From NCBI RefSeq assembly GCF_030053135.1, contig NZ_CP125652.1, forward strand, positions 3,652,501-3,716,500: a DNA stretch of 64,000 bases, read 5' to 3'. The DNA is from Rhizobium sp. BT04. Lineage in GTDB: Bacteria > Pseudomonadota > Alphaproteobacteria > Rhizobiales > Rhizobiaceae. A program made the translations under genes and the position numbers. The notes under the pieces are model-generated. The model had not been told where the DNA came from. It ran no database searches and saw only the letters and a program-made list of their open reading frames with translations. Each line of letters opens with the position of its first letter. Position 1 is the stretch's first letter. Positions 9,135 through 31,215 of the stretch are shown here, in pieces.

Positions 9135-9138
9135 GGGG

Positions 9139-11233: not shown

Positions 11234-11243
11234 ACGGACCGAT

Positions 11244-12522: not shown

Positions 12523-12531
12523 TCCTGAATC

Positions 12532-13257
12532 TCACGCGATCATATAGCCGCCGTCCACCGGCATCGATATCCCGTTCACCATGGCAGCTTCATCGGAAAG
12601 CAGGAAGAGAACAACTTCGGCAATGTCAGCTGGCTCGGCAAACCGACCGACGGGAATTCGTTGCATCATCCCCGTGGCCTTCTCGGGATCGCTCCATGCC
12701 TTCACCGCCATCGGGGTCAGCGTCACCGTGGGATGGATTCCGTTGGCGCGGATGCCGTGAGGTGCAAGCTCCTTGGCCATGACGCGCGTCAAGCCATCCA
12801 ATCCACCCTTCGACGCGCAATAGGCAGCGTGGTCGGGGAGGCCGACGAAGGCGGCGACCGACGAGACATTGACGATGGCGCCTCTGCGGCCCTCTTTGAT
12901 CAGTGAACGAGCATATTCCTGGGCGACGATCATCGGAGCACGGGTGTTGACCGCGACAAGCCGGTCGAAGGCTTCGACGGTTGTCTCCAGGAACGGCTGG
13001 AGTTCGGTCGTGCCGGCGCAGTTGACGAGAAAATCGGCCGGAAGGGCGGCGATCGCAGCCTGTCTGGTCGCATCGGCGTCGGCGAGATCGACCTGTATGG
13101 CCCGGCAGCCGGGCTCCCCACGCAATGCTTCGACGTCGGCGGCACTCCGCGTCAGGGCCACCACCTCAGCACCCCGCTCGATGAGCATCCTGACAATTTC
13201 GCGTCCGATGCCTTTTCCGGCGCCGGTCACGATAACCGTCTTTCCTTTGAACTCCAT
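12532..13257 (-). CDS. SDR oxidoreductase, L-xylulose reductase (DCXR)-like
   Basis: A 241-residue classical short-chain dehydrogenase. The cofactor motif TGAGKGIG lies near residue 10, the NCAG motif near 79, Ser at NVSS, and YCASK near 147. The wording closely follows animal dicarbonyl/L-xylulose reductase: LQPFLE.T.EAFDR..AVNTRA, GAIVNVSS, HPTV.LTPM....WSDPEKA..M..RIPVGRFAE. DCXR interconverts xylitol and L-xylulose with NADP and also reduces other ketoses. It is the last gene of the transporter operon (12 bases after the ATPase), so it probably acts on the imported polyol or its ketose. Substrate unproven. Confidence 0.8.
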   Translation of the reverse strand: MEFKGKTVIVTGAGKGIGREIVRMLIERGAEVVALTRSAADVEALRGEPGCRAIQVDLADADATRQAAIAALPADFLVNCAGTTELQPFLETTVEAFDRLVAVNTRAPMIVAQEYARSLIKEGRRGAIVNVSSVAAFVGLPDHAAYCASKGGLDGLTRVMAKELAPHGIRANGIHPTVTLTPMAVKAWSDPEKATGMMQRIPVGRFAEPADIAEVVLFLLSDEAAMVNGISMPVDGGYMIA

Positions 13258-13269
13258 GGATCGTCTCCC

Positions 13270-14331
13270 TTACAGTCTCTGGCCCGTTTCCCGATCGAAG
13301 ATATGTGCACGTCGGGGATCGATGTGGAAGTACATCGTCCGTCCGGGATCGACCTCGATGCGTTCGCGGATCAGCGCGTCGATCGGCACGCCGCCCGTGC
13401 GGCCGAAGATCAATGTCTCCGAACCGGTGGGCTCGAACACCGAGACCTCCACCGGAACGCCTTCATCGCCGATCGTGATATGCTCCGGCCGGATGCCGTA
13501 GGTTACGGCTCTTCCTTCGTCCGCATTGGTATTTCCCATGGGAAGGGCGATACCCTGGTCGGTGACGACGACCTTCCTGCCGTCACGGGTGGCGATGCGA
13601 CCTTGCAGGAAGTTCATCGATGGGCTGCCGATGAAGCCGGCGACGAAGAGGTTGACCGGGAAGTCGTAGAGATCGAGCGGCTTGCCGATCTGCTCGACCC
13701 TGCCGTCGCGCATCACCACGATCTTGTTGGCCATCGTCATGGCCTCGATCTGATCATGCGTGACGTAGACGGTCGTGGTCTTCAGCCGCTGGTGAAGCTC
13801 CTTGATCTCGACGCGCATGGTGACGCGGAGTTTAGCGTCGAGGTTCGACAATGGTTCGTCGAACAGGAAGACCTTCGGATCGCGCACGATCGCGCGGCCC
13901 ATCGCCACGCGCTGACGCTGCCCGCCCGACAGCTGTTTCGGATAGCGGTCGAGATAACGCGTCAGGTCGAGAATCTCGGCCGCCCTGCCGACCTTCTCGT
14001 CGATCTCCGCCTTGGGGCGCTTGGCCATTTTCAGCGGAAAACCCATATTCTCGGCGACCGTCTTGTGCGGATAAAGCGCATAGCTCTGGAAGACCATGGC
14101 GATGTCGCGCTCCTTCGGCGGAGCGTTGGTGACGACACGGCCGCCGATCCGGATATCGCCGCCGCTGACGGTCTCGAGACCGGCGATCATCCGCAGCAGT
14201 GTGGACTTGCCGCATCCGGATGGGCCGACCAGCACGACGAATTCGCCATCCTCGATGTCGACGCTGACGCCGTGCATGACCTGTAGTGCGCCATACTTCT
14301 TGGTGACGTCGCTCACCTGTACATTTGCCAA
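13270..14331 (-). CDS. CUT1-family sugar/polyol ABC transporter, ATP-binding protein (UgpC/MalK type)
   Basis: A 353-residue ATPase with Walker [12 protein letters not shown] near residue 37, Q-loop [11 protein letters not shown], signature [14 protein letters not shown] near residue 134, Walker [13 protein letters not shown] and switch VTHDQIEA. Residues after ~235 form the regulatory OB (TOBE) domain of the MalK class, including YGIRPEH. It couples ATP hydrolysis to import through the two permeases encoded upstream in the same operon; the ATPase may be shared with other CUT1 systems, as is known for this class. Confidence 0.93.
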
Positions 14332-14389
14332 TGTCGTTCCTCCCTAAAGCAGTTCAGCTTGTATCTTGGCGTTGAGGGAATTCATCGGC

Positions 14390-14596
14390 TCATCCCTTCC
14401 AGACGAGATAGGCGCCGAGCACCGCCGAGATGGCTGCCGCAAACCAGACCGAAAGCCCGAACGGCTCGAGGAACCGCATCCAGAACAGCGAGAGCGCGAC
14501 CCAGATCACCACCGCGATGAACAGCCGGTCGAACCAGTTCGTTTCGATCGGCAGAAAGCCCGGCTTGCGTTGATTATTTCCTGATGGAGACGTCAT
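14390..14596 (-). CDS. Small two-helix membrane protein in the ABC transporter operon
   Basis: A 68-residue protein with a polar N terminus (~20 residues) and two membrane helices: WFDRLFIAVVIWVALSLFWM and a second ending in AVLGAYLVWKG. It lies between the MalG-type permease (4 bases before it) and the ATPase (58 bases after it), so it is almost certainly co-transcribed and translated. It resembles in size and placement small accessory membrane proteins of some rhizobial carbohydrate ABC operons, but I cannot assign a family or function. It may stabilise the permease complex. Confidence 0.65.
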   Translation of the reverse strand: MTSPSGNNQRKPGFLPIETNWFDRLFIAVVIWVALSLFWMRFLEPFGLSVWFAAAISAVLGAYLVWKG

Positions 14597-14600
14597 GGCT

Positions 14601-15437
14601 TCATCCTTTCACGGCGCCGAAGGTCAGGCCGGCAACGATGTGACGTTGCACCACCGAAAACACGATAAGTGCCGGAACCAGTGTCAGCATTGAGATCGCC
14701 GCCATGATGCCCCAGGCCGTTCCCGTGGTCGTCACATATTCCGACAGGCCGGTGGTCAGCGTCCGCGCATTGAAATTGGTGAGCGTCGCCGCCAGCAGAT
14801 ATTCGTTCCACGCAAACACCCAGGTCAGGATCAGCGTCACCGCAAGTCCGGGCCGCGCCAGGGGGAAGACGATGTCATAGAGGACGACCCATGGGCTGGC
14901 GCCGTCCATATAGGCGGCCTCGTCCAACTCCTTCGGAATGCCTTCCACGGTCGGGCGCAGCGTCCAGATGGCGAAGGGAAGGTTGAAGGAGCAATAGACC
15001 AGGATCATGCCCAGCCTGGAATCGGCGAGCGAGAAGTCGCCGATCCTGTAGACCTGCGTCAGCAGCAGGAAAAGCGGCAGCAGGAAGACCGCCGGCGGCG
15101 CCATGCGGTTCGTGATCGTCCAGAAAAAGATGCTTTCCTTGCCGGCAAGCTCGAAGCGCGTCAGGGCGTAGCAGGCAAAAAAGCCGAGCGTCGTGACAAG
15201 CAGCGCGTTGCCCGACGAAATGATCATCGAGTTGAGCATGTAGCCGCGCAAGGTCGGATTGGTCAGCACGTCTTGGTAGTTCTTCCAGAAGAAGCTCCGG
15301 AGAATGACGTCGGGCGTCGAGAACAGGTCGAAGGGCTGCTTCACCGAGATGACGAACAGCCAGTAGATCGGGAAAAGGGTCGCGAGGCTTATCAGGGTCC
15401 ACAGGACGACCGGAAGCCAGGGGGGCTGGGTCTTCAT
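14601..15437 (-). CDS. CUT1-family ABC transporter permease (MalG type)
   Basis: A 278-residue inner-membrane protein with six predicted helices and the cytoplasmic EAA loop EAAYMDGASPWVVLYDIVFPLARPG near residue 175, which docks onto the ATPase. It begins MKTQPPWLPVVLWTLISLATLFPIYWLFVISVK, the usual MalG start with the first helix. Its start is 4 bases after the MalF-type gene and its stop 4 bases before the small membrane protein. Confidence 0.92.
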   Translation of the reverse strand: MKTQPPWLPVVLWTLISLATLFPIYWLFVISVKQPFDLFSTPDVILRSFFWKNYQDVLTNPTLRGYMLNSMIISSGNALLVTTLGFFACYALTRFELAGKESIFFWTITNRMAPPAVFLLPLFLLLTQVYRIGDFSLADSRLGMILVYCSFNLPFAIWTLRPTVEGIPKELDEAAYMDGASPWVVLYDIVFPLARPGLAVTLILTWVFAWNEYLLAATLTNFNARTLTTGLSEYVTTTGTAWGIMAAISMLTLVPALIVFSVVQRHIVAGLTFGAVKG

Positions 15438-15441
15438 CGCG

Positions 15442-16317
15442 TCAACCTCTCTTCACGCGGGGCGCAATCAGGCCGACATAGAGCAGCCAGCAGACGACGA
15501 TGGTGAGGTAAAGGACGATGACGGATATGGCCGAACCGTAGCCGTAATTCGTCTTCGGAAAGACTTCCCGGAAAATATGGACGCCGATGTAGCGCGTCGA
15601 TGAACCCGGACCGCCGCCGGTCAGCATCAGCACTTCGTCGACGGTGCGCAGCGCGTCCATCAGCCGGATGAACACGGTGGCGAGCAGGGCCGGGCGGATC
15701 AAAGGCAGCGTTATGTGCCAGAAGATCTGGCTCTTGCCGGCGCCGTCGATCTGCGCCTGCTCGAACGGGTCCGACGGAAGCGAGACGAGGGCGGCGATCA
15801 GCGAGAGGGTGACGAGCGGCGTCCAGTGCCAGATGTCCATGATGACAGTGACGGTGAAGGCCGCGACGGCACTCTGGCCGATATTCAGATCGTAGCCGAA
15901 CCAGCTTCGGAGCAGATAGGGAATGATGCCGATCGACGGCGTGGTCATCAGCTTCCAGACGGAGCCGACGATGATCGGCGCCATGATCAGCGGCAGGGTA
16001 TGGATCGTGCGAAACACCGCTTTTCCGGGAAAGTCCTTCAGCAGCGCCTGGGCAAGGATGTAGCCGAGGACCAGTTCCGACACGACCGCGAAGAAGACGA
16101 ATGCCAGGGTTATGCCGAGCGAAGCCAGGAACTGCGGGTCGAAGACCAGCCGCCGATAATTGTCTGCCCAGTTGAAGACCATGCCCGGATTGGCCGCGAA
16201 CGGGTTCCACGCGTGGAACGAGACCCAGAGGACGTAGATGAACGGGAAGATCCCGAACAGTCCAAGGATTATGATGGTCGGTGACAGCAACAGCCATCCG
16301 AGCTTCTGCGAATGCAT
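15442..16317 (-). CDS. CUT1-family ABC transporter permease (MalF type)
   Basis: A 291-residue inner-membrane protein with six predicted helices. The first helix begins LGWLLLSPTIIILGLFGIFPFIYVLWVSF; the EAA loop near residue 205 reads PFEQAQIDGAGKSQIFWHITLPLIRPALL. It pairs with the MalG-type permease to form the channel. It is separated from the upstream binding-protein gene by 96 bases containing two stable stem-loops. Confidence 0.92.
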   Translation of the reverse strand: MHSQKLGWLLLSPTIIILGLFGIFPFIYVLWVSFHAWNPFAANPGMVFNWADNYRRLVFDPQFLASLGITLAFVFFAVVSELVLGYILAQALLKDFPGKAVFRTIHTLPLIMAPIIVGSVWKLMTTPSIGIIPYLLRSWFGYDLNIGQSAVAAFTVTVIMDIWHWTPLVTLSLIAALVSLPSDPFEQAQIDGAGKSQIFWHITLPLIRPALLATVFIRLMDALRTVDEVLMLTGGGPGSSTRYIGVHIFREVFPKTNYGYGSAISVIVLYLTIVVCWLLYVGLIAPRVKRG

Positions 16318-16350
16318 CGCCTATCCCCCATTGAACGCTATGTGGACGTC

Positions 16351-16400
16351 CGCTCCGTCTAGGAGCGCAAAGATGACGGGTCGTCGGAAACGACCCGTCA
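16351..16400 (-). promoter_or_regulatory. Tandem intercistronic stem-loops between binding-protein and permease genes
   Basis: Two perfect hairpins: CGCTCC/GGAGCG with a 5-base loop (16351-16367) and an 11-bp stem TGACGGGTCGT/ACGACCCGTCA with a 5-base loop (16374-16400). On the transcript the larger one comes first, 13 bases after the binding-protein stop. No T-run follows, so they fit better as mRNA-stabilising or partial-termination structures that raise binding protein over permease, as known for mal-type operons. Confidence 0.6.
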
Positions 16401-16413
16401 GTTGGGAGGATGT

Positions 16414-17847
16414 TTATTTGCGATAGCCGAGCGAGGTGAGCTCCTCTTCGGCCTTGGCCGCCATCTGGTCGAGGCCTTCATCGGGACCGATCTTGCCGGT
16501 CAGGATGTCGTAGAAGATCGGAGCGGTCGCTTCACGCACCTGCGCATGGAAGGGGTAGGGAGGAGCGCCGGCGAAGAGCTTGCCCTCGTCCTTCAGCATC
16601 GTATAGAAGCCGCCGAGCTTGACGTCCATTTCCTTCACCTTCGGATCGTCGAACGTCGCCTTGTTGGTGATGCGCGGTGCGGCGATCGCCCAATCGGGCT
16701 GCACTTCGTTCTGGCCGATGAATTCGAGGAAGAGCAGCGACGCTTCCCTGTTCTTGGACGTGATCGGCACGCCGAAGGCGCCGCCATCGTAATAGCCGAT
16801 ATAGCCCTTTCCGGCTTTCGCATCGTCCAATACGCCTGGCTCGAGCGGCGGCAGAGCGAAGCCGACCTGTCCCACAACCTTCGACTGTGCCGGATCGCTG
16901 GCGATCCAGGCGGCGTTCTCACCGTAGATCAGTCCCTGGGCGACACGACCCGCGGCAAAGGTCGTCGCGGTTTCCGTCCAGGTCGACTGCGTCGATTCCG
17001 GAGGAGCGATGTCGCGCAGGTGCAACCAATATTTCAGCGCGGCCTTCGCCTTGTCGCCGTTCATCGAGCCGCCGTGTTCGACCGTCGCCGCATAATTGTT
17101 CTTGGCGTCGATGCCCCAATTGTAGACGCCGAAGGTCGGCACGATGGACTCGAAGAATTCATACCAGGACGCCGGATGGCCGGTATGGGCCTGAGCGGTC
17201 GTGCCCCAGAGCTCCAGGCCGTTGTCCTTGCCGTACTTCGTGAAGAATTCGGCAATCTCCGTATATTCCGCGTGGGTGGTCGCCGGCTTCAGCTCCCTGC
17301 CGGTTTCCTTCTTGAAGGCTTCCTTGATCTTCGGATCGTCGAACAGGTCCTTACGATAGAGATAGGTCTTCAGGAAGGCTTCCATCGGAACGCCGAAGAG
17401 ATCGCCGCTCGTGTCCTTGAAGTAGTCGGCAAAGCTGGTGAAGTTCGAGTCGTCATAGGTCGGCGCCTTCAGATCCGGCTGGTCTTTCAGCGTCTTGGTG
17501 ATGTCGACGAGGAAATTCCTGGCGAGATAAGAGTAGATGATGTCCTGCTCGATATAGACCATGTCATAGATGCCGGTTTTGGCTTCCATGTCCTTGATGG
17601 CCTTATCGTACATCTGATCCCAGGACGTCGTCTCGATGTCGACCTTGATGCCGGTCTTCTTTTCGAATTCCGGGGCGAGCACGTTCTTGATGTAGTTCGA
17701 TGGCGGGGTGCTTTCGGTGACGCCGTGCAGCGTCACGCCCTTGTATTTAGCCCCGGCATCGGACCAGAAGTCGGCCCAGGCCGGCGAGGCGGTGGTGGCG
17801 AGGCCGAGCGTCAGCGCAAGCGCGCTAGCCTTCAAAGCATGATGCAT
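16414..17847 (-). CDS. CUT1-family sugar/polyol ABC transporter, periplasmic substrate-binding protein
   Basis: The ATG at 17847 has a GGAGG Shine-Dalgarno 7 bases upstream and opens a signal peptide ([22 protein letters not shown], then DFWSD), giving a 477-residue precursor; a longer open frame upstream lacks such signals. The mature protein has the family-1 solute-binding fold: [33 protein letters not shown] near the start. First gene of the transporter operon, divergent from the epimerase operon. The neighbouring enzymes suggest a hexitol or pentitol (galactitol, altritol, ribitol, sorbitol) as ligand. Confidence 0.92.
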
Positions 17848-17916
17848 TTCCAATCCTCCCAGAGTGCAGCGAGATCGTTTCGCCGGTGCTTGTGTAGGCC
17901 AAAAAATCCGACAGCG

Positions 17917-17928
17917 CAACATTTGTTG
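17917..17928. promoter_or_regulatory. Palindrome CAACATTTGTTG, candidate ROK operator
   Basis: A perfect 12-bp palindrome (CAACA-TT-TGTTG) 70 bases upstream of the binding-protein start. It shares the CAACA/TGTTG core with the larger inverted repeat at 18045-18081 in the same divergent intergenic region. A ROK repressor is encoded in the divergent operon. Binding is inferred. Confidence 0.4.
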
Positions 17929-18044
17929 TCTAAACATGCAAATAGGCGGACTATCTCTTTGATTTTTGCGGAAACTAATTTCTTTTGCAGAGGCGGATTA
18001 GTGTGAATTGGCCTAAAATGCTGCATTGCAAAGATATTTCGCAT

Positions 18045-18081
18045 GGCAACAAAAAATATCAGCTTGAAATTATTTGTTGCC
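18045..18081. promoter_or_regulatory. Inverted repeat GGCAACAAA ... TTTGTTGCC, candidate ROK operator
   Basis: Perfect 9-bp arms (18045-18053 and 18073-18081) separated by 19 AT-rich bases, 62 bases before the start of the epimerase gene. The arms repeat the core of the palindrome at 17917-17928. The position between the transporter and enzyme operons suits a regulator controlling both; the ROK protein at 19090 is the obvious candidate. Confidence 0.45.
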
Positions 18082-18142
18082 TTACCAAACTAAAAGGCAT
18101 AGCACTGTCCGCAATCAAAGGCAGATCGTGGAGGAAAAACCT

Positions 18143-19027
18143 ATGCGTCGATTGGGGATCCATTCATTTGTATGGACAGGCGGCCAAACGCAGGAAGGGC
18201 TGGAGATGGCCCTCAACAAGACGGCCGAACATGGATATCGCACCATCGAATTTGCCTATCTGCGCCCCGAGAAATTCAACCTCGATCGATTGGCGAAGCT
18301 TGCGCAATCCCTTGACGTCGAAATCGGCGTGACGATGGGTCTGCCGCTCGACAAGGACGTATCGAGCGAGGACATGTCTGCTGTCTCCGCCGGCAGGCAG
18401 ACGCTGGCCGATGCCGTTCGCGCGGTCCGCGATATCGGCGGCAACAAGCTCGGTGGAATTCTCTATTCCGCCCATACCAAGTACAATCGCCAGCCGACGA
18501 AGAAGGGCTGGGACAACAGTATCGCCGCGATCGCCGCAACCGGCGAAGTCGCCAGGCAGGCGAACGTCGACCTCGTCCTGGAGGTCGTCAACCGGTTCGA
18601 GACGAACCTGCTGAATACGACGGCGCAGGGGCTCAAGTTCATCGCCGAGACCGGATCGGCGCATGTCCGTCTGCATCTCGACACGTTCCATATGAACATC
18701 GAGGAAGCCAATCCGGCCGCCGCGATCCGTCTGGCCGGCGACAAGATCGGCTACTTCCACATCGGCGAGAGCAATCGCGGGTACCTCGGCGACGGCGTCA
18801 TCAACTTCGATCTGATCTTCGACGCGCTGCTCGACATCGACTACAGCAGCGACATCGTGTTCGAAAGCTTCTCGACGACGGTGGTCGACGAAGGCCTTTC
18901 GCTCGCCTGCGCGATCTGGCGCGATACCTGGGAGGAGAATGATCCGCTTGCAGCCCATGCGAAGCGCTACATCGAGCTGAAATATGACGAGGCCAAGCGC
19001 CGCCGCGCCACAAACGCGCGGCCCTGA
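18143..19027 (+). CDS. TIM-barrel ketose 3-epimerase, D-tagatose/D-psicose 3-epimerase family
   Basis: ATG 18143 with GGAGG 9 bases upstream gives 294 residues. The metal and substrate motifs of the D-tagatose 3-epimerase family are present in order: EVVNRFETNLLNT (metal Glu), HLDTFHMNIEEANP (metal Asp and His), HIGESNRGYLGDG (His/Glu/Arg) and VFESFS (second metal Glu). The family interconverts ketohexoses or ketopentoses at C3 (tagatose-sorbose, fructose-psicose). First gene of the plus-strand operon, so it likely converts the ketose made by the SDRs into one the kinase accepts. Confidence 0.85.
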   Translation: MRRLGIHSFVWTGGQTQEGLEMALNKTAEHGYRTIEFAYLRPEKFNLDRLAKLAQSLDVEIGVTMGLPLDKDVSSEDMSAVSAGRQTLADAVRAVRDIGGNKLGGILYSAHTKYNRQPTKKGWDNSIAAIAATGEVARQANVDLVLEVVNRFETNLLNTTAQGLKFIAETGSAHVRLHLDTFHMNIEEANPAAAIRLAGDKIGYFHIGESNRGYLGDGVINFDLIFDALLDIDYSSDIVFESFSTTVVDEGLSLACAIWRDTWEENDPLAAHAKRYIELKYDEAKRRRATNARP

Positions 19028-19089
19028 TTATCCTTCTGACAGCCTGTTCCAGTCGTGTAAGGGTTGGGCGACTTGAAGGGAATTGAAAT

Positions 19090-20316
19090 ATGAACGACAC
19101 CGTCTCCATCGGGAGTTCGCCGCGCAGGATCCGGCAGAACAATATCGTCGCCGCCTTGCAGACGATCTACGCCCACCGAAGCCTCAGCCGAGCCGATCTC
19201 GCCCGCAAGCTCGGCATGAATCGCTCATCCTCGGGAGAGATCGTCGCCGAACTGACGGAAGGCGGGTTCGTTCAGGAGTCGGATGAGAGCGGCAAGCCGC
19301 GCTCGGAGCATTCCCGTGCCGGCCGTCCGGGCATCATGCTTGAACTGGTTGCCGATGCCGCATTCTTCGTCGGGATAGAGATCGGCGTCGAGCATATATC
19401 GGCAGCAGTCATCGATCTCTCCGCCGAAGTCCGGGCATGCCGGAAAATGGCGTTCGATACGCCGTCTTCGACGGTGGAGGCGGCAGTAGCGCAGGGTGTC
19501 GAACTCATTATCGGCGCGATGGCGAAAGGGATGATCGGCAGGTGCAAGGGTCTCGGCATATCGACGCCGGCCCATATCCTGCCGGATGGATTTGTCACCC
19601 TGGCCCCGATCATCGGCTGGCGGGACGTGCCGTTGAAGGAGATTGGCCGCGCTGCCTTCCTGGCCGCCGTCCCGGATACCCTCCCGATCGCGGTCGAAAA
19701 CGACGCCAACGCCTTTGCGATCGGTGACAGCTATCGTCACGGCGCCGCGGGTGTGACCCTGTTCCTGCTCATGGAAACCGGTGTCGGCGGCGGCATCATG
19801 ATCGATGGCAAGCTGTTCCGGGGCGGCCACGGCCTGGCGGGAGAAATCGGCCACACAATGGTGCCGGGAAGCGGCGGTCAGAAGTTCGAACAGTTGATCG
19901 GTCGCGAGGTGCTCATCAGGCAGTATCGCGAGGCTGTCGGCCGCAAGGACGCGGATCTGCAGGACTTCCTCGGCGACGTTCGTGACCGTGTCCCGGCCGC
20001 GGTCAATATCGCCGAAAGCTGGTCGCGCCATCTCGCATACGCCTTGCTGCAGGCGTGTCGTCTGCTCGACCCGGACAGGATCGTGCTCGGCGGCTCCGTG
20101 GCATCCCTCTACCCGATGGTCGCCGCCCGCGTGGCGGTGCACATGTCGGAAGGCCAGAACATTCCTTTCCCCACGCCCGAGATCGTCGTCGACGGCGATG
20201 CGGAGTTCGGTTCCGCCTTCGGGGCGGCATGCATGCTGCACCAACGCTTTCTGTCACTGGAGAACGAGGAATTCGGCAGCGAGGACGGTGCGCCGGTTCA
20301 ATCGGCGACGAGTTGA
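19090..20316 (+). CDS. ROK-family transcriptional regulator
   Basis: A 408-residue protein with an N-terminal winged helix-turn-helix (RRIRQNNIVAALQTIYAHRSLSRADLARKLGMNRSSSGEIVAEL, residues 12-55) and a ROK sugar-kinase-like domain: ENDANAFAIGD near residue 200, LLMETGVGGGIMIDGKLFRGGHGLAGEIGH near 218-248 and a C-terminal LGGSVASLYP. The Cys-rich ROK zinc motif after GEIGH (usually CxCGxxGC) is replaced by TMVPGSGGQ, so it probably lacks the structural zinc. It lies inside the catabolic operon, 62 bases after the epimerase; likely a repressor induced by a pathway sugar. Confidence 0.88.
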   Translation: MNDTVSIGSSPRRIRQNNIVAALQTIYAHRSLSRADLARKLGMNRSSSGEIVAELTEGGFVQESDESGKPRSEHSRAGRPGIMLELVADAAFFVGIEIGVEHISAAVIDLSAEVRACRKMAFDTPSSTVEAAVAQGVELIIGAMAKGMIGRCKGLGISTPAHILPDGFVTLAPIIGWRDVPLKEIGRAAFLAAVPDTLPIAVENDANAFAIGDSYRHGAAGVTLFLLMETGVGGGIMIDGKLFRGGHGLAGEIGHTMVPGSGGQKFEQLIGREVLIRQYREAVGRKDADLQDFLGDVRDRVPAAVNIAESWSRHLAYALLQACRLLDPDRIVLGGSVASLYPMVAARVAVHMSEGQNIPFPTPEIVVDGDAEFGSAFGAACMLHQRFLSLENEEFGSEDGAPVQSATS

Positions 20317-20345
20317 CGACAAGAACGATCGAAAGCAGGATTGAA

Positions 20346-22609: not shown

Positions 22610-22621
22610 GAGGAGAAATCG

Positions 22622-23347: not shown

Positions 23348-23358
23348 AGGAGCCTGAC

Positions 23359-24132: not shown

Positions 24133-24185
24133 TCTTTTGGGAGCGAGGCGCGCGTTGGAAGGCCGGCTGCAAACAAATCAGGGAA

Positions 24186-24203
24186 TGTGGAAACGTTACC
24201 ACA
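24186..24203. promoter_or_regulatory. LacI-type operator 1
   Basis: TGTGGAAACGTTACCACA, an 18-bp near-perfect palindrome with the central CG and AACGTT core typical of LacI/GalR-family operators. It lies just upstream of a TTGACT -35 (24209-24214). A second copy follows at 24240. The LacI regulator at the end of this gene cluster is the likely ligand. Confidence 0.75.
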
Positions 24204-24208
24204 TTTTC

Positions 24209-24236
24209 TTGACTCTCATTCCTGCTGCATTTATTC
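24209..24236 (+). promoter_or_regulatory. Candidate sigma-70 promoter of the second catabolic operon
   Basis: TTGACT (24209-24214), 16 bases, then TTATTC (24231-24236), 37 bases before the aldolase ATG and bracketed by the two LacI-type operators. The -35 fits well, the -10 moderately. Confidence 0.5.
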
Positions 24237-24239
24237 GAA

Positions 24240-24257
24240 TGTGGAAACGTTGCCATA
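24240..24257. promoter_or_regulatory. LacI-type operator 2
   Basis: TGTGGAAACGTTGCCATA: the left half and core are identical to operator 1, the right half differs at two positions. Centre-to-centre distance to operator 1 is 54 bases, about five helical turns, which would suit looping or cooperative binding. It covers the start-site region of the candidate promoter. Confidence 0.7.
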
Positions 24258-24272
24258 TCTGGGAGGAGTGTG

Positions 24273-25097
24273 ATGAAATCCGCGCGGTTGAACCGACTTT
24301 TCGGCGTGTCTGGAAATTGTTTTGACGTTGCCATCGATCACGGCATGTTCAATGAACGAACCTTCCTTTCCGGCATCGAGAACATGAAGATGGCCATCGA
24401 GGTGATCGCTGAGGCGGCACCCGATGCCATTCAGCTTCCGCCGGGGACCGCACCCATTCTGCAGGCGATCCCCGGCAAGCATCGTCCGGCACTGGTGCTG
24501 CGCACCGACATCGCCAACATTTACGGCAATCCTCTGCCGTCCCAGCTGTTCTCCGAAATGATCGACAGGGCGGTGGAACAGGGCGTTGCGTTGGATGCCG
24601 CCTGTGTCGTCGTCAATCTTTTGATGCTGCCGGACCAGCCGGAGGTCTACCGCGCCTGCGTGCGCAATGTGAACAGCCTGAAGCGCCAATGCGAGATTTA
24701 CGGCATGCCGCTGATGGTCGAACCGCTCGTCATGCAGGACAATTCCAAGGGTGCCTACATGGTGGATGGCGCGATCGACAAGATCCTGCCGCTTGTGCGT
24801 CAGGCGGCCGAACTTGGTGCTGATATCATCAAGGCCGACCCCTGCGACAATGTCGAGGAATATCATCGCGTGGTCGAGATCGCCCAAGGCCTGCCGGTGC
24901 TGGTGCGCGGCGGCGGCCGCGTTTCGGATCAGGAAATCCTGATCCGCACCAAGCAGTTGATGGAGCAGGGCGCCCGTGGCATCGTCTATGGCCGCAACGT
25001 CATCCAGCATCACAATCCCGGCGGCATGACGCGGGCCTTGATGGCGATCGTCCATGACAAGGCTTCCGTCGAGCAAGCCTCCCGGCATATTGGCTGA
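24273..25097 (+). CDS. DhnA/FbaB/LsrF-type class I aldolase
   Basis: ATG 24273 follows GGAGG by 6 bases (a GTG directly before is less likely). The 274-residue protein has the class I DhnA-like aldolase pattern: VAIDHGMF near residue 20, PDAIQLPPGTAPIL, a Schiff-base Lys candidate in GADIIKADPCDN near residue 188, then LPVLVRGGGRV and GIVYGRNVIQH. Such enzymes cleave ketose 1-phosphates, bisphosphates or related phosphates into triose units. First gene of the LacI-controlled operon; its substrate is presumably the product of the PfkB kinase at 26945. Exact substrate unknown. Confidence 0.75.
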   Translation: MKSARLNRLFGVSGNCFDVAIDHGMFNERTFLSGIENMKMAIEVIAEAAPDAIQLPPGTAPILQAIPGKHRPALVLRTDIANIYGNPLPSQLFSEMIDRAVEQGVALDAACVVVNLLMLPDQPEVYRACVRNVNSLKRQCEIYGMPLMVEPLVMQDNSKGAYMVDGAIDKILPLVRQAAELGADIIKADPCDNVEEYHRVVEIAQGLPVLVRGGGRVSDQEILIRTKQLMEQGARGIVYGRNVIQHHNPGGMTRALMAIVHDKASVEQASRHIG

Positions 25098-25119
25098 CGC
25101 GCATCGGGGAGGAGATGTC

Positions 25120-26274
25120 ATGACGAAAATATTCCGCTTCGGCGTCATCGGCTGCGGCCTGATGGGGCGCGAATTTGCCAGCGCCGCGGCGCGCTGGCTG
25201 CATCTGGCCGATGTGAAGGCACGACCGGAAATCGTCGCCGTCTGCGACACCAACACGACGCTGCTCGACTGGTTCAAGGATCATGTGCCGAGCGTTCGCC
25301 AAGTGACCGCCGACTATAAGGAGCTTCTGGCCAATCCCGAGGTCGATGCGGTCTATTGCGCAGTCCCGCATGTGCTGCACCAGCAATTCTATATCGATAT
25401 CCTGAAGGCCGGAAAGCATCTTCTCGGCGAGAAGCCCTTCGGCATGGACGCAGCTCAGAACCGGGAGATCATGGCGGTTCTCGCCGAACATCCCGAACTC
25501 CTGGTCCGCTGCTCCTCGGAAATGCCGTTCTTCCCCGGCGCACAGAAGGTTATCGCGCTTGCAAAAAGCGGCGAGATGGGGGAGATCCTCGAAGTCGAGG
25601 CGGGTTTCCTGCACTCTTCGGATATCGACCGGCAGAAGCCGATCAACTGGAAGCGCATGGCCGAGATCAACGGCGACTATGGCTGCATGGGTGATCTCGG
25701 CATGCATGTGCTGCACGTGCCGCTGCGTCTCGGCTGGCGCCCGACCACCCTGCATGCGCAATTGGTCAAGAAGGTCACCGAACGTCCCGACGGCAAGGGC
25801 GGCATGCTGCCCTGCACCACCTGGGACAATGCGACGATCAGCAGCCGCGTGCGCACCGGCGATCAGGATTTCCCGATGGTGCTGAAAACCTGGCGCATCG
25901 CGCCCGGCGAATCCAACAGCTGGTACATCCGCGTTCTCGGCATGAAGAAAAGCGCTTTCTTCAGCACGAAGTCGCCGCGCCAGTGGCAGTGGATGGATTA
26001 TAATGGCGGTGCGCAAGCCTGGAGCACCGAGGATCTCGGCTACGGCTCGCTGTTTCCAGCCATTACAGGCAAGATCTTCGAATTCGGTTTTGCCGACGCC
26101 ATACAGCAGATGTGGGCGGCCTTCGTCGACGAACTTGCCGGCGGCAATGCCAACGGTTTCGGCTGCGCGACGCCGGCGGAGGCGCAGGCGCATCATGCGG
26201 TGCTGACGGCTGCTCTCAAATCCGGCCGCGAAGACGTCGTGGTGCCGGTCGCGTATGGTGGGGCATCCGTCTGA
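25120..26274 (+). CDS. Gfo/Idh/MocA-family NAD(P)-dependent oxidoreductase
   Basis: ATG 25120 has GGGGAGGAG upstream; 384 residues. The N-terminal Rossmann motif GVIGCGLMGREFA, then DAVYCAVPHVLHQQ and the Lys of GEKPFGMD near residue 109 (family EKP motif) are clear, followed by the alpha/beta C-terminal domain with GDLGMHVLH near 200. The family oxidises sugars, inositols or amino sugars at ring or chain hydroxyls. Its stop overlaps the next ATG (ATGA). Longer than many members and no better subfamily assignment can be made by eye. Confidence 0.82.
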   Translation: MTKIFRFGVIGCGLMGREFASAAARWLHLADVKARPEIVAVCDTNTTLLDWFKDHVPSVRQVTADYKELLANPEVDAVYCAVPHVLHQQFYIDILKAGKHLLGEKPFGMDAAQNREIMAVLAEHPELLVRCSSEMPFFPGAQKVIALAKSGEMGEILEVEAGFLHSSDIDRQKPINWKRMAEINGDYGCMGDLGMHVLHVPLRLGWRPTTLHAQLVKKVTERPDGKGGMLPCTTWDNATISSRVRTGDQDFPMVLKTWRIAPGESNSWYIRVLGMKKSAFFSTKSPRQWQWMDYNGGAQAWSTEDLGYGSLFPAITGKIFEFGFADAIQQMWAAFVDELAGGNANGFGCATPAEAQAHHAVLTAALKSGREDVVVPVAYGGASV

Positions 26275-26945
26275 TGCAGCGCTCTGCGATCAACGCCGCC
26301 TTGCGGCGGGCAACCGAAACTCTCGAGCGCTGGCACTGGTCTCTGCCGGCATGGGGCTATTGGACGGCGGCGGATTTTGCCGCTCATCCGGAGGCCTCAG
26401 CCTATTTGCGCGCCCATCAGCTGGGTTGGGATGTCACCGATTTCGGCTCGAACCGGTTTGCCGAATGCGGCCTCGTGCTGTTCTGCCTGCGCAATGGCAT
26501 CGTTGATATCGAGGGTGAGCGGACCTATGCCGAAAAGTTGCTCTTCGTTGGGGAAGGGCAGGTCACGCCGACGCACCGGCATGCGGCGAAGATGGAAGAC
26601 ATCATCAATCGCGCCGGCGGCGATCTCGTCATCGAATTCGCCGCAACCGATGCCGATGGCAATGTGCTGACGGAGGATGTGGCGGTTCCGGTCGACGGGC
26701 TGCCGCACCGCCTCTCCGCATGGGAGCCGCTGGTTCTCAAGCCTGGCCAGAGCGTGACGATCCGCACCGGGCTTTACCACCGCTTCTATGGCCGGAAAGG
26801 CGGCGGAGCTGTGCTTGTCGGCGAGGTCAGCCAGGTCAATGACGACAACAGCGATAATGTCTTCCTGGAGCCGATCGGCCGCTTTGCCGCGATCGAGGAG
26901 GACGAGCCGCCGCTCAAACCCCTCTGGAACGAAGGAGGCCGCTGA
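26274..26945 (+). CDS. D-lyxose isomerase-like cupin sugar isomerase
   Basis: A 223-residue single-domain cupin: LGWDVTDFG near residue 50, TPTHRHAAKMEDIINRGGG-type metal site (His, His, Glu) near residues 100-113, then TGLYHRFYG with the fourth metal ligand near 165 and VLIGEVSQVNDD. These are the hallmark segments of D-lyxose ketol-isomerases (D-lyxose to D-xylulose, D-mannose to D-fructose, metal-dependent). Start and stop overlap both neighbours by ATGA junctions, showing tight translational coupling with the oxidoreductase and the kinase. Confidence 0.82.
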   Translation: MQRSAINAALRRATETLERWHWSLPAWGYWTAADFAAHPEASAYLRAHQLGWDVTDFGSNRFAECGLVLFCLRNGIVDIEGERTYAEKLLFVGEGQVTPTHRHAAKMEDIINRAGGDLVIEFAATDADGNVLTEDVAVPVDGLPHRLSAWEPLVLKPGQSVTIRTGLYHRFYGRKGGGAVLVGEVSQVNDDNSDNVFLEPIGRFAAIEEDEPPLKPLWNEGGR

Positions 26946-28003
26946 TGCGAACCGGGGAGGAGGTTCAACATCGCGACAGTCGGAAAAAGGGCGGCATCGT
27001 CTGCGCGGGAAACTTCATCGTCGATCGCGTCCACACCCTGTCCTATTGGCCCGAACAGGGCAATCTTGCTCATATCCTGCACCAGGATCTGGGCGTGGGC
27101 GGCGGGGCGGCCAATGTCGTCACCGATCTCGCCTCGCTCGGATTTCCGGGAAGGCTGGCGGTGGCCGGATGCATCGGCGCCGATCAGGACGGAGAAATCG
27201 TCAAGGCCCGCCTTGCCGTTGCCGGCGTCGACGTCGGCGGGCTGACGGCGCTGGCCGACCGGGTGACGGCGCATACGCATGTCATGAATGTGCCCGGTCA
27301 GAACCGCACCTTCTTCTATCATGGCGGCGCCAACGATGCCGTCACGGATGAGCTTGTCTCACCCGCGGCCTTCGCCAAGGCCGGCTATCGGCTGTTCTAT
27401 CTCGGTTACCTCATGCTGTTGCCGGGTCTCGACCGCATCGGCCCCGACGGTCGTTCGGGAGCGTCGCGCCTGCTGGAGGCCGCGCGCCGCGCGGGGCTCA
27501 CGACCTGCGTGGATTTCGTTTCGAGCGAAGACCCGGACTTTGCGGCCAAGGTCGGCGTCGCTCTGCCCTTCTGCGATTTCCTGATCATCAACGAGATGGA
27601 GGCGGGTCGGGCAACCGGCGTTACCGTTCGCGATGCGAAGGGAGATTTGATCGAGGCGGGGCTATTGGAAGCGGGCGAGCGCCTGCTGGGCGCGGGCGTC
27701 GCGAAAGGAGCGATCATCCATGCGCCGGAAATCTGCTTCTGGTTTGCATCAGGCGCTTCCCCGGTCATGACGCGGTCAAGGCCCGTCGACCCCGGTGACA
27801 TCGTCAGCACGGTCGGCGCCGGAGACGCCTTCTGCGCCGCCGTGCTCTACGGCCTGCATGAGAACTGGCCGGTCGAGCATATCTGCGCCGTCGCCCATGC
27901 GGCGGCCGCGCGTTGCCTTGGGGGTGCGACGGCCACGGATGGCATCCCCGACATATCCGTCCTCCTTCAGGAGGCAACGGAGACGAACCCGCAACCCGCT
28001 TGA
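26945..28003 (+). CDS. PfkB-family sugar kinase (second copy of the class in the island)
   Basis: A 352-residue kinase with IVCAGNFIVDRVH at the start, GGGAANVVTDLASLG near residue 51 and the catalytic VSTVGAGDAFCAAVLYGL motif near residue 281 (a Val replaces the usual Asp-Thr lead). The first ~15 residues look like extra N-terminal sequence. It is distant from the other PfkB protein at 20346, so a different substrate is likely. With the isomerase before it and an aldolase in the same operon, it probably phosphorylates a ketose to make the aldolase substrate. Confidence 0.82.
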   Translation: MRTGEEVQHRDSRKKGGIVCAGNFIVDRVHTLSYWPEQGNLAHILHQDLGVGGGAANVVTDLASLGFPGRLAVAGCIGADQDGEIVKARLAVAGVDVGGLTALADRVTAHTHVMNVPGQNRTFFYHGGANDAVTDELVSPAAFAKAGYRLFYLGYLMLLPGLDRIGPDGRSGASRLLEAARRAGLTTCVDFVSSEDPDFAAKVGVALPFCDFLIINEMEAGRATGVTVRDAKGDLIEAGLLEAGERLLGAGVAKGAIIHAPEICFWFASGASPVMTRSRPVDPGDIVSTVGAGDAFCAAVLYGLHENWPVEHICAVAHAAAARCLGGATATDGIPDISVLLQEATETNPQPA

Positions 28004-28068
28004 CCCATCGGCGTCGCCTCGGGAGAGGGTGGCGCCGATCATCGTCCAGTCGGAATGGAGGAGCAGAC

Positions 28069-28143
28069 ATGAAGCTATTCACTATGGCAGCCGTAGACGG
28101 CAACCTTGCCGATTTAGGCGCGACCGGGGAGGCAGGGCGATGA
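28069..28143 (+). CDS. Possible 24-residue leader peptide or gene remnant
   Basis: ATG 28069 sits 6-7 bases after a strong GGAGGAGC Shine-Dalgarno and opens a 24-codon frame (MKLFTMAAVDGN... ending GEAGR) whose TGA overlaps the ATG of the next SDR gene by ATGA. It could be a translated leader that couples the SDR to upstream translation, or the truncated start of a lost gene. No family recognised. Confidence 0.35.
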   Translation: MKLFTMAAVDGNLADLGATGEAGR

Positions 28144-28928
28144 CCTATACGGAAACGGAACGGCTCTCCGGCAAGGTGGCATTGGTCACAGGAGGCGCGA
28201 GCGGCATCGGCAAAGCGGTCTGCGAACGCTTCGCCGCCGAAGGCGCCAGGGTTGTCGTGGCGGATCTCGACGGTGAACGCTGCGCGCGGGTGGCGGAAAC
28301 GATCGGTCCTGATGCCTGGGGTGTGGCGCTTGACGTGACCAGCCAGGACAGTATCGAAGAGGCGGCACGCTTCACCATCTCAACCGCCGGTCAGATCGAC
28401 ATCCTGGTCAATGCCGCCGGTATTTACGACGTCGAGTCGATTCTGGAGATATCCCGGGAGCGCACCGCTCGGGTATTTCAGGTCAATATCGAAGGCCTGA
28501 TCTTCATGACGCAGGCCGTCGCCCGGCACATGGTGGAGAGAGGGGAAGGTGGACGCATCATCAACTTCTCGTCCCAGGCGGGGCGTCGGGGCGAAGGGCC
28601 GGCGGTGGCTTATTGCGCCTCCAAGGCGGCCGTCATCAGCATCACGCAAAGCTGCGCTCTGGAGCTGATCCGCTACGGGATCAACGTCAACGCCATCGCG
28701 CCCGGCGTCGTCGATACGCCGATGTGGGACGTCGTCGATGCAAAACTCGGCAGCCGCGAAGGTTTGAAACCCGGCGACGTCAAACGCCGCGTGGCCGCCG
28801 CCGTCCCCGCCGGACGATTTGGCGCGCCCCAAGAACAAGCGGCCATGGCAGCCTTCCTGGCCGGCCCCGATGCAGCATACATCGTGGCGCAGTGCTACAA
28901 TGTCGATGGCGGCAATGTCATGAGCTGA
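28140..28928 (+). CDS. SDR sorbitol/polyol dehydrogenase, SmoS-like
   Basis: A 262-residue SDR: TGGASGIG near residue 17, NAAGIYDV near 94, the catalytic Ser in NFSSQAGRRGE and YCASK near 160. It follows Rhodobacter sphaeroides sorbitol dehydrogenase SmoS step by step: VFQVNIEGLIFMTQAVARHM, AVISITQS, RYGINVNAIAPGVVDTPMWDVVDAK, AAVPAGRFG, YIVAQCYNVDGGN at the C terminus. SmoS oxidises D-sorbitol to fructose and galactitol to tagatose. Its ATG is overlapped by the 24-codon frame and has GGGGAGG upstream. Confidence 0.85.
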   Translation: MTYTETERLSGKVALVTGGASGIGKAVCERFAAEGARVVVADLDGERCARVAETIGPDAWGVALDVTSQDSIEEAARFTISTAGQIDILVNAAGIYDVESILEISRERTARVFQVNIEGLIFMTQAVARHMVERGEGGRIINFSSQAGRRGEGPAVAYCASKAAVISITQSCALELIRYGINVNAIAPGVVDTPMWDVVDAKLGSREGLKPGDVKRRVAAAVPAGRFGAPQEQAAMAAFLAGPDAAYIVAQCYNVDGGNVMS

Positions 28929-28983
28929 CGCTTCGCTTCATCAGCAGCAATAGGCAATCGAACTTGGGGTCTGGAGGAGTGGA

Positions 28984-29994
28984 ATGAAGGCTGTACGCTT
29001 GGAGTCGATCGGGTCTTTGACCATGCGCAGCGTCGAAAAACCGGTTGCCGGGCCGGGCGAGCTGCTTGTCCGGGTCGCAGCCGCCGGCATCTGCGGTTCC
29101 GATCGCCACATGTACAAGGGCGAGTATCCGACAGCGATCCCCGTCACGCTGGGCCACGAATTCAGCGGCATCGTCGAAGAGATCGGCGATGGTGTGACAC
29201 GGTTTACCGGCGGCGAGCTGGTGACGGTGGACCCCAATATTGCCTGCGGCACCTGTCCAGCTTGCACGCGGGCGCGGCCGAATCTGTGTGAGAGGCTGAC
29301 CGCCATCGGCGTGACACGGGACGGCGGCTTTGCCGAATATGTGGCGGTGCCGCACGCGCAGGCCTTCGTCCTGCCGGCCGACCTCGATCCCGTTCACGGC
29401 GCCTTCAGTGAACCGCTGGCCTGCTGTATCCACGCCATCGACAAGGCAGGGATCCGTCCGGGCGACAGCGTCGCCATCCTTGGCGGCGGCGTGATCGGCC
29501 TGCTGATGGTGCAACTGGCCCGCCTGGCCGGGGCAGGCGAGATCATTTTGATCACGCGGCAGCAATCGAGACGCCAAACTGCTCTGCGCCTGGGGGCGAC
29601 GCACGCCTTCGACCCCGCCTCTCCGGACACGATCGCGTCCGTTCGAGAGGTCACCAAAGGTGGCGCTGACGTGGTCATCGAGTGCGCCGGCGTCAGCGAC
29701 ACGCTTCAAAGCGGTCTGAAAATGGCGCGGCGCGGTGGTGCCTTCGTGCTTTTCGGGGTGACGCCGGCCGGTGTCGAGGTGCCGGTTCTGCCCTTCGATC
29801 TGCTGGTCAATGAAGTCGATATCAGGCCGGCCTACCTCAACCCCTTCACCCATTCGCGCGCTGCGGCAATGGTCGCGAGCGGGGCATTGGAACTGGACGC
29901 ACTGGTCACCAGAACCATCGGTCTCGAGGAGGTCGCCGAGGTGGTGGGCAATGCACCATTGCCGGGCGAGATCAAGGTCATCGTCCGGCCTTAG
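28984..29994 (+). CDS. Zinc-dependent medium-chain polyol dehydrogenase
   Basis: A 336-residue MDR enzyme. Catalytic zinc ligands are CGSDRH near residue 37 and GHEF near 60; the structural zinc site is CGTCPACTRARPNLC (four Cys, residues 90-104); the cofactor motif is LGGGVIGLL near 165. The family includes sorbitol, xylitol and L-threonine dehydrogenases; in Agrobacterium a PF00107 member oxidises D-altritol to D-tagatose, which makes it a good candidate for that type of reaction here. GGAGGAG precedes the ATG. Its stop overlaps the LacI gene's stop in a convergent arrangement. Confidence 0.87.
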   Translation: MKAVRLESIGSLTMRSVEKPVAGPGELLVRVAAAGICGSDRHMYKGEYPTAIPVTLGHEFSGIVEEIGDGVTRFTGGELVTVDPNIACGTCPACTRARPNLCERLTAIGVTRDGGFAEYVAVPHAQAFVLPADLDPVHGAFSEPLACCIHAIDKAGIRPGDSVAILGGGVIGLLMVQLARLAGAGEIILITRQQSRRQTALRLGATHAFDPASPDTIASVREVTKGGADVVIECAGVSDTLQSGLKMARRGGAFVLFGVTPAGVEVPVLPFDLLVNEVDIRPAYLNPFTHSRAAAMVASGALELDALVTRTIGLEEVAEVVGNAPLPGEIKVIVRP

Positions 29995-31016
29995 CCTCGG
30001 TTGCGGACGGGGCCGGTGGAATCACGCTCGATCAGCGTGACCGGCACTTTGACGATCGCACCCCGCCGGGATTCGTCCCCTGTCTGGTGCTCGTCGATCA
30101 GCGATTCCAGCAACCGGGCGGCCTGCTGCCCGACATCGCGGATCGGCTGTGCGACCGTTGTCAGCCGCGGAAAGACATAGGCGGCCTCCGGCAGATCGTC
30201 GAAGCCGACGACCGAATAGTCGTTCGGAACGGAAAATCCGCGATCCTGGATGGCATGGATGGCGGCAATCGCCGAAATGTCGGTCGTGCCGATGATCGCG
30301 GTGATATCCGGCCGGAACGCCAGCAATTCCCGCGCCAGCCGGTAGGTTTCGGCAAAGCTGTGCTCTTCCGCCATCGCCACGATCGCCGGCGCGATGCCGT
30401 TTCCAGCCATTTCCGCCGTGATGCCCTGAAGGCGAAGTTGGATCGGCTGGCTGTGTGCCGGCGCGCCGACGATGGCGATCGCTTGGTGGCCGAGACCGAT
30501 CAGATGGCGCGCCATCAGCCGCCCGCCTTCTTCATGATCGGCCATGACAGCCTCGTCGGCGATGCCGTTCAGTTCGCGGTCGATGGCGATGATCGGAATG
30601 CGGGCGTCCCGCAGCACCCCGAAATGCTCGATGCTGCCGAAGGCGCTGGCGACGATGACGCCGTCGACGCGCTGAGCGAGCAGCATGGAGATATAGCGCG
30701 CCTCGTGGTCCATATTTTCCGCCGTGCTGCAGATCAGCGTCTGATAGCCGTGCTGGAACAATTCCTGTTCGATGGCATGGGCCAGGATGCCGAAGAAAGG
30801 CACGTCGATCGACGGCAGCATCAGCCCGATCATCCGGCTTGGCGCACCGCGCAGCATGCGCGCGCCCTTGCTGGGCGTGTAGTTCAGCGTTCGGATCGCC
30901 GCCTCGACCCGGTCACGGAGCTCAGGCGAGGCGTAACCGCTGTTGTTGAGCACGCGCGAGACCGAAGAGACCGACGTTCCTGCAAGTTTGGCGATATGTC
31001 TGATGCTGGTCGTCAC
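29991..31016 (-). CDS. LacI-family transcriptional regulator
   Basis: The GTG at 31016 opens 341 residues directly with the LacI helix-turn-helix: TTSIRHIAKLAGTSVSSVSRVLNNSGYASPELRDRVEAAI, followed by the hinge LNYTPSKGARMLRG and a periplasmic-binding-like sugar domain (LMLPSIDVPFFG, IDRELNG, VGFDDLPEAAYVFPRLTTV). The frame is open further upstream but no family member is longer at the N terminus. It is convergent with the operon it probably controls; two matching operators lie at 24186 and 24240. The inducer is presumably a polyol or ketose of the second module. Confidence 0.9.
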   Translation of the reverse strand: MTTSIRHIAKLAGTSVSSVSRVLNNSGYASPELRDRVEAAIRTLNYTPSKGARMLRGAPSRMIGLMLPSIDVPFFGILAHAIEQELFQHGYQTLICSTAENMDHEARYISMLLAQRVDGVIVASAFGSIEHFGVLRDARIPIIAIDRELNGIADEAVMADHEEGGRLMARHLIGLGHQAIAIVGAPAHSQPIQLRLQGITAEMAGNGIAPAIVAMAEEHSFAETYRLARELLAFRPDITAIIGTTDISAIAAIHAIQDRGFSVPNDYSVVGFDDLPEAAYVFPRLTTVAQPIRDVGQQAARLLESLIDEHQTGDESRRGAIVKVPVTLIERDSTGPVRNRG

Positions 31017-31215
31017 GTGTTCGCATTTCTTTCGGGCGGTCGAATAAGGCGGACTGCTGCAGTTCACATCTAGATCACTAGCGGGGCGCCGCATCAAGCG
31101 CGCGACGTCACACCGGCGCTCTTCGGACTGATGGTTATCCGGCCTTGATCGACAAGGTCCGCCTTGAAAGCTACAGGATAGGTGCTTGATCGATAGCGGC
31201 ACCTTGGGCGGACAC

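Follow-up and report, generated by a model that had tools for sequence, protein, structure and literature searches.

Two adjacent, apparently separately regulated catabolic units in a putative sugar-alcohol island of Rhizobium sp. BT04

Does the run of sugar genes beside a tRNA-Phe gene in Rhizobium sp. BT04 form one large sugar-alcohol island, or does it hold more than one pathway? The run occupies positions 12532-31016 of the window, the 64,000-nucleotide stretch of contig NZ_CP125652.1 that we analyzed and whose numbering is used throughout, and the initial annotation had read it as a single island in which several polyols feed one ketose pool. Using open reading frames, codon-position guanine-cytosine (GC) content and profile scans (Pfam, NCBIfam), with ARAGORN for tRNAs, we recovered every gene that this annotation had listed, and the tRNA-Phe gene is indeed its neighbor (11636-11711, forward strand). 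An island beside a tRNA gene would suggest mobility, but no integrase was seen among the 10 flanking open reading frames scanned (other reading frames and direct repeats, such as a tRNA-derived repeat, were not searched). We somewhat favor reading the run as two adjacent, separately regulated catabolic units, not as one large island. Module 1 (12532-24132, genes A-K) is, judged by its gene content, a variant of the known galactitol/tagatose pathway; module 2 (24186-31016) is probably an uncharacterized, widely conserved set for sugar breakdown, in which a sugar kinase stands with an aldolase and an oxidoreductase and, in most cases, with an isomerase.

Each module carries its own regulator gene: a ROK-family gene in module 1 (G, 19090-20316, forward strand; PF00480) and a LacI-family gene in module 2 (R, 29991-31016, reverse strand; PF00356). 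Module 2 further reads, all on the forward strand, L (class I DhnA/LsrF-like aldolase of the DeoC/LacD family, 24270-25097), M (Gfo/Idh oxidoreductase, 25120-26274), N (D-lyxose isomerase-like cupin, 26274-26945), O (PfkB kinase, 26945-28003), P (SmoS-type L-iditol 2-dehydrogenase, 28140-28928) and Q (zinc-type polyol dehydrogenase, 28984-29994; PF08240/PF00107). O and P are separated by 136 bp. We followed this module in 82 loci, namely the 80 best of 188 relatives of M in a genome collection plus loci L181 and L188, a sample in which distant members are under-represented; 51 of these are near loci (L068-L118; M 80-98% identical) and 31 are distant (L119-L147, L181, L188; M 67-76%). No module 1 lies within reach in 66 of the 82 loci (F, its epimerase gene, was found in the other 16). 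In the three Rhizobium loci that were aligned (R. rhizogenes NBRC 13257, R. leucaenae USDA 9039 and R. lusitanum P1-7), DNA homologous to the window extends only from about 24175 to 31030-31043, beginning at the predicted operators described below and stopping at R, and in R. chutanense and R. esperanzae (L068, L081) an intact module 2 has beside it only gene J of module 1. Module 1 likewise occurs without module 2: it is complete, with A-B-c-C-D-E divergent from F-G-H-I-J-K, on plasmid p1 of Sinorhizobium sp. B11, where unrelated genes stand on both sides; F-G-H-I-J are accompanied by a ribose-type transporter on pAtK84c; and Thioclava has F-H-I and then J with a different CUT1 transporter. 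At the level of gene order, we consider the separability of the two modules established.

Control of module 2 can be approached through its upstream region. Two palindromes, predicted LacI-type operators identified by pattern searches, lie 54 bp apart on the forward strand upstream of L: TGTGGAAACGTTACCACA (24186-24203) and TGTGGAAACGTTGCCATA (24240-24257). Across the host genome (6.99 Mb, 7 contigs), the pattern TRTGGNAACGTTNCCAYA has two perfect matches, both before L, and one site with two mismatches, and the reversed control pattern gives one site per strand; within the window, only the two operators are found at up to three mismatches, where shuffled sequences average 0.23 sites and 3 out of 100 shuffles reach two. 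An operator-like site (up to three mismatches) is present upstream in 68 of 78 homologous loci, versus 10 of 7497 random 260-bp windows from the same loci, and it tracks R: 65 of the 78 loci have both, two have R only, three have the site only and eight have neither, although close relatives among them are not independent (14, two, three and eight, respectively, in the more distant loci alone). No palindrome was detected at the threshold used in the region upstream of R itself or, when a candidate site for G was sought, between E and F. The conserved operator and its co-occurrence with R are thus established from sequence, and we infer that L-Q form a LacI regulon of their own that R would control through these operators, much as G would act in module 1.

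Could the two modules nevertheless work as one integrated island, the dehydrogenases of both feeding a single pool that is drained by the tagatose kinase and the PF08013 protein, with O and L as a second exit? We regard this as possible, if doubtful. The two units stand side by side, with E, F, H and I at least 88% identical, in 15 of the 51 near loci (some loci stop at a contig edge), and since the arrangement recurs in this way it is more than chance. Among the other 31 loci they adjoin in one, a Paracoccus metagenome-assembled genome (L145), this time convergently (identities of 71% for E, 79% for F, 72% for H and 68% for I), and diverged H and I homologues (42-46%) occur near L-M-N-O in L121, L135 and L146. 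The SmoS-type gene P sits in module 2, and by its family it is the one supported bridge between the modules; furthermore, no transporter was found in the module 2 regulon here, the genome-wide pattern search placing operator sites solely before L. These points must be set against the separate regulators, an operator confined to module 2, the 66 loci in which module 2 has no module 1 within reach, and the occurrence of module 1 by itself. Moreover, where a transporter directly accompanying module 2 could be typed it is usually of the CUT2 type (a CUT2 binding protein in 13 of the 82 loci, annotated in Thioclava and lying at 12939-13886 in L108), and CUT1-type in L130 and L131. Of the single ketose pool, the bridging by P is supported, but module 2 falls outside it, because it has its own predicted LacI regulon, mostly occurs without module 1, and has an aldolase, Gfo/Idh and kinase core that looks like a separate route.

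What, then, would module 1 do? Its transporter operon, on the reverse strand, runs from the CUT1 solute-binding protein E (16414-17847; PF13416/PF01547) through the CUT1 permeases D (15442-16317) and C (14601-15437; both PF00528), the 68-residue DUF2160 membrane protein c (14390-14596; PF09928, 36.5 bits against a cut-off of 28) and the UgpC/MalK-type ATPase B (13270-14331; NF008653, 502 bits against 432) to its last gene, A (12532-13257; PF13561/PF00106), a short-chain dehydrogenase/reductase (SDR). Gene c had escaped the initial annotation, and has orthologues at the same position in L183 and others. The forward-strand arm carries F (18143-19027), a ketose 3-epimerase of the AP_endonuc_2 type (PF01261), then G, the PfkB tagatose kinase H (20346-21323), the PF08013 protein I (21323-22609), and two SDRs, J (22622-23347) and K (23359-24132, from the profile scan); J belongs to the core of the module, being found beside F-G-H-I on pAtK84c and downstream of F-H-I in Thioclava. 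The CUT1 transporter would import a polyol or a ketose, the SDRs would oxidize the imported polyol to a ketohexose, which F may epimerize at C3, H would yield D-tagatose 6-phosphate, and I would epimerize this to fructose 6-phosphate.

The kinase and epimerase steps agree with the proposal, already made for this locus, of a route from D-tagatose through tagatose 6-phosphate to fructose 6-phosphate. H passes the curated tagatose kinase model NF049991 (560.9 against a cut-off of 420), and I matches PF08013 (555 bits) and TIGR02810 (571.8 against 568.8). A passage of PMC11907403, with reference to the enzymes of A. tumefaciens and S. meliloti, reports GatZ and KbaZ to be C4 epimerases and gives C20, E44, H88, E171, H257 and K279 of GatZ as the residues that separate the GatZ/KbaZ epimerases from class II aldolases. 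In the alignment, I is identical at all six (C24, E48, H92, E175, H262 and K284), and is predicted to be a tagatose 6-phosphate 4-epimerase. The sugar handled upstream is less sharply indicated: F scores below the D-psicose 3-epimerase equivalog NF051856 (183.5 against 300), its nearest solved relative being the L-ribulose 3-epimerase 3vyl (292 bits), and the best PDB chain for E, 5iai, reaches only 49 bits, a match from which no ligand can be inferred.

Known pathways narrow the choice of polyol. Wichelecki et al. in 2015 reportedly described D-altritol and galactitol pathways in Agrobacterium tumefaciens C58 that use a PfkB tagatose kinase, a PF08013 epimerase and a PF00107 D-altritol dehydrogenase. 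Module 1 shares with the C58 pathways the PfkB tagatose kinase, the PF08013 protein and a polyol-type transporter; it differs in that its transporter operon lacks a PF00107 dehydrogenase, in the extra ketose 3-epimerase F, and in having module 2 attached. The C58 D-altritol 5-dehydrogenase makes D-tagatose, according to a passage of PMC12193009 that cites Wichelecki et al. (2015). Open reading frames and the Pfam scan show no PF00107-type gene in the window's transporter operon (12532-17847), as in three of the 11 loci with an E-type transporter (L183, L191 and L192); in the other eight (L046, L047, L189, L190 and L193-L196), a Q-like gene of this type lies between E and B. Q is the sole PF00107 protein of the stretch, sits in module 2, and is 27-31% identical to the transporter-operon genes of these relatives. 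Since the operon here lacks the gene, a D-altritol branch of the C58 type loses its support, although altritol had been listed among the substrates, and the galactitol/tagatose branch keeps it. For galactitol, S. meliloti has a tagatose operon on pSymB, and its SmoS acts on sorbitol and galactitol, as stated in parts of PMC10433430, which cites Kohlmeier et al. (2019) for the operon. The window resembles that system in combining a tagatose operon with a dehydrogenase of the SmoS type, which galactitol use requires there. It differs in that H shares only some 50-52% identity with the plasmid kinases listed for S. meliloti, and in that the SmoS-type gene P is part of the neighboring LacI regulon. 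With such close precedents in Agrobacterium and Sinorhizobium, module 1 adds little to published work.

The individual dehydrogenases allow fewer assignments than had been proposed. Each of the four SDRs, which share 27-35% identity with one another, had been likened to a different characterized enzyme, but only P passes an equivalog model, the curated L-iditol 2-dehydrogenase model NF005472 (405.5 against 338); it is also the only match to itself in the host genome at an E-value of 1e-50 or below. With each of the other three, A, J and K, all of the 25 best NCBIfam families listed stay below their cut-offs, and the labels proposed for them (ribitol, galactitol, L-xylulose reductase) are therefore unproven. 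On pAtK84c (L182, 12249-12835), K is present as two overlapping pieces and is probably broken, with F, G, H, I and J at full length.

Module 2 has a core that is easily recognized. All 82 loci contain M, by definition of the sample, and all contain O. L is found in 80, a contig end interrupting each of the two loci that lack it, and N, R, Q and P are found in 70, 68, 46 and 27, respectively; L, M and O occur together in 80 loci, and these counts make the three of them the core of the module. The closest M homologues (96-98%) come from R. leguminosarum and related species, and other relatives from records titled Rhizobium, Agrobacterium, Rhodobacter, Paracoccus, Labrenzia and others. In the record of R. 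leguminosarum (johnstonii) 3841 (L074), the match to the window covers at least 15118-31033. When the search was widened to 398 genomes from across the phylum, only three, one of them the host, had M at an E-value of 1e-60 or below, and among 151 genomes of the family, close relatives of L (at least 86%) and of O (at least 52%) occur in the same four (G000, G029, G061 and G106). Of these 151 genomes, 27 contain L relatives of 47-54% identity (noted in L053-L057, for instance), which belong to a different operon and were set aside as informative neighbors (16 of their loci were compared by BLAST and six read by eye; in five of these six, the gene is flanked by a GlpD-like dehydrogenase gene and one that resembles an FGGY kinase). 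In R. hidalgonense FH14 (L094, about 11150-11235), only the tail of N has escaped deletion, whereas L, M, O, P, Q and R are still there.

The residues that we presume to be needed for catalysis are kept in all four enzymes. In L, K188, presumably the Schiff-base lysine position, is invariant in 79 aldolase rows and aligns with K203 of LsrF; with its match to PF01791 (115.9 against 23.8), this places L among the class I DhnA/LsrF-type aldolases. H101, H103, E108 and H169 of N, which we take to be the metal-site residues, are invariant in 70 isomerase rows. N passes PF07385 (263.8 bits against 20.8), shares this family and the H-x-H-x4-E ... H residues with the D-lyxose isomerase in PDB 3kmh and 3mpb (assumed here to be the E. 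coli enzyme), and falls below the D-lyxose/D-mannose isomerase equivalog NF051472 (218.7 against 350). D294 of the GAGD motif in O (PF00294; predicted local distance difference test score of its model, 91) and K105, D192 and H196 in M are each invariant in 82 rows.

From these families we infer a route in which an aldose (through the isomerase N) or a polyol (through Q or P) would be turned into a ketose, O, a predicted PfkB ketose 1-kinase, would phosphorylate it at C1, and L would split the ketose 1-phosphate into dihydroxyacetone phosphate and an aldehyde; M may perform an additional redox reaction on a shared intermediate. The pattern of N and Q bears on the first step: among the 31 distant loci, 20 have N only, seven have Q only, four have neither and none has both (Fisher p 1.3e-4, uncorrected for kinship, the seven Q loci falling into about three groups of close relatives), and such exclusivity is expected if both enzymes make the ketose used by O. 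The CUT2 binding protein shows a like preference, all 13 of its loci having N and none having Q. A Subdoligranulum gut record (L180, OY725846.1, labeled a plasmid, 386 kb, with one annotated feature) holds at 5072-13119 a homologue of M (52.6%) with an AraA-type isomerase, an FGGY kinase and a class II aldolase, besides a class III aminotransferase and another Gfo/Idh protein; we count this row for the proposed route, since it fills the isomerase, kinase and aldolase roles from unrelated families.

Several observations weigh against this route. The exclusivity of N and Q fails in the near loci, 38 of 51 having both, and the four distant loci with neither (L128, L133, L136 and L142) do not fit it. 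L lies below all six NCBIfam cut-offs listed. O has no equivalog, and its best structural matches (ribokinases, YdjH, YihV and 2-keto-3-deoxygluconate kinases) are tied or close, so that phosphorylation at C1 rests mainly on the nature of L. The structure model of M is only moderately confident in parts, and the place of M in the route is left unexplained.

A different chemistry has also been considered for module 2, in which M would oxidize an aldose to a lactone, O would phosphorylate a keto-deoxy acid, and L would cleave the product to pyruvate and a phosphorylated aldehyde. The best PDB sequence match of O is a 2-keto-3-deoxygluconate kinase (43.9 bits) and its best NCBIfam match is IolC (67.6 bits), Gfo/Idh enzymes often oxidize cyclic sugars, and the nearest structures of M include levoglucosan and L-glucose/scyllo-inositol dehydrogenases. 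We nevertheless think this oxidative route unlikely: no dehydratase or lactonase family was matched among L-Q (Pfam, NCBIfam), it leaves no function for an aldose-ketose isomerase, and the families matched by L whose reaction is known are LsrF and class I fructose bisphosphate aldolase. The latter two act on ketose-1-phosphate-like compounds. A direct alignment of L with FbaB of E. coli K-12 was of no use. E. coli LsrF is 27.9% identical over 97% of L, which speaks for Lsr-like processing of autoinducer-2 with L as LsrF. This reading is very improbable, and we reject it for L, which scores 93.9 where the LsrF equivalog NF006081 demands 297; no FGGY kinase (LsrK) or LsrG was matched among L-Q, and N, Q and P would have no role. 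Inositol catabolism was also discarded, O reaching 67.6 against 300 for IolC, M 53.0 against 355 for IolG, and Q 219 against 450 for IolM.

For the route through a ketose 1-phosphate, a parallel is offered by the E. coli ydj cluster, in which, by RefSeq product names, a PfkB kinase (YdjH), a 1-phosphate aldolase (YdjI) and a zinc dehydrogenase also share one cluster. The YdjH structures 3in1 and 3h49 rank among the best structural matches of O, but O and YdjH are only 24% identical, and unlike in module 2, no Gfo/Idh protein or lyxose isomerase is annotated in the E. coli stretch compared. YdjI is an aldolase of a different class from L. In a single search of the open-access literature for each, by title and abstract, we found no paper on the function of YdjH or YdjI, and no description of the L-M-(N)-O gene set.

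The neighbors of module 2 elsewhere are varied. In L130 the CUT1 transporter precedes it, along with genes that are SmoS-like and (by eye) mannitol-dehydrogenase-like. Genes resembling xylA and xylB (by eye) are convergent with it in L128 and L133. We also noted, by eye, an L-rhamnose isomerase-like gene near the Q-bearing, N-less modules of L120 and L123, and in L123 a rhamnulose-phosphate aldolase/dehydrogenase fusion-like gene. A gene of about 343 amino acids (f25) accompanies the CUT2 set in 11 of the 82 loci (L108, 16483-17514; L110-L113; L181; and others), one of which, L144, has it in the absence of f21; f25 had looked by eye like a mutarotase, which we do not claim, as it has no Pfam match up to an E-value of 10 (four sequences) and no PDB match up to 1 (one sequence).

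One set of neighbors suggests a specific sugar. In seven of the 31 distant loci (L121, L135, L138, L142, L144, L145 and L146), L-M-(N)-O has as neighbors a ROK kinase, a LacD-family aldolase and an adenylylsulfate-kinase-like protein, and five of the seven also carry f30, the CUT2 binding protein. In L121 the binding protein matches PDB 5dkv with 511 bits, an entry that we take to be Avi_5339 with tagatose bound. With its CUT2 transporter, this set resembles the Rhodobacteraceae locus that Leyn et al. (2017; PMC5507952) predicted to be a mannoheptulose pathway, on the ground that its binding protein is similar to Avi_5339. That locus is itself a prediction, its kinases and aldolase are different ones, and none of its genes is in the window. 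Because module 2 adjoins such a set, we put forward, as a speculative and rather improbable extension, that L-M-(N)-O may handle higher-carbon sugars by a route not yet described: N acting on aldoheptoses, or Q on heptitols such as perseitol, would give a heptulose, O would make the heptulose 1-phosphate, and L would release dihydroxyacetone phosphate and a free tetrose (D-erythrose if the ketose is mannoheptulose), whose ring form M would oxidize. If true, this would account for the constant company of M with L and O, for the adjacency to the mannoheptulose set, and for the likeness of O to YdjH, which is tied with that to ribokinases.

Downstream of module 2, GC content is lower (0.53-0.56) at 31859-36864, where the window encodes an O-antigen ligase-type protein, an acyltransferase and a beta-helix protein. 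The alignment with L068, L069 and L081 skips from 31862 to 34266, and the stretch looks like a variable surface-polysaccharide region. A Ku-type protein (37127-38170; PF02735) suggests a non-homologous end-joining gene nearby.

Taken as a separate unit, module 2 would give several enzymes a shared pathway, a shared regulator and a shared operator, so that one induction or growth screen could assign all of them at once, and the exchange of N and Q predicts a single ketose as the point where their branches would cross.

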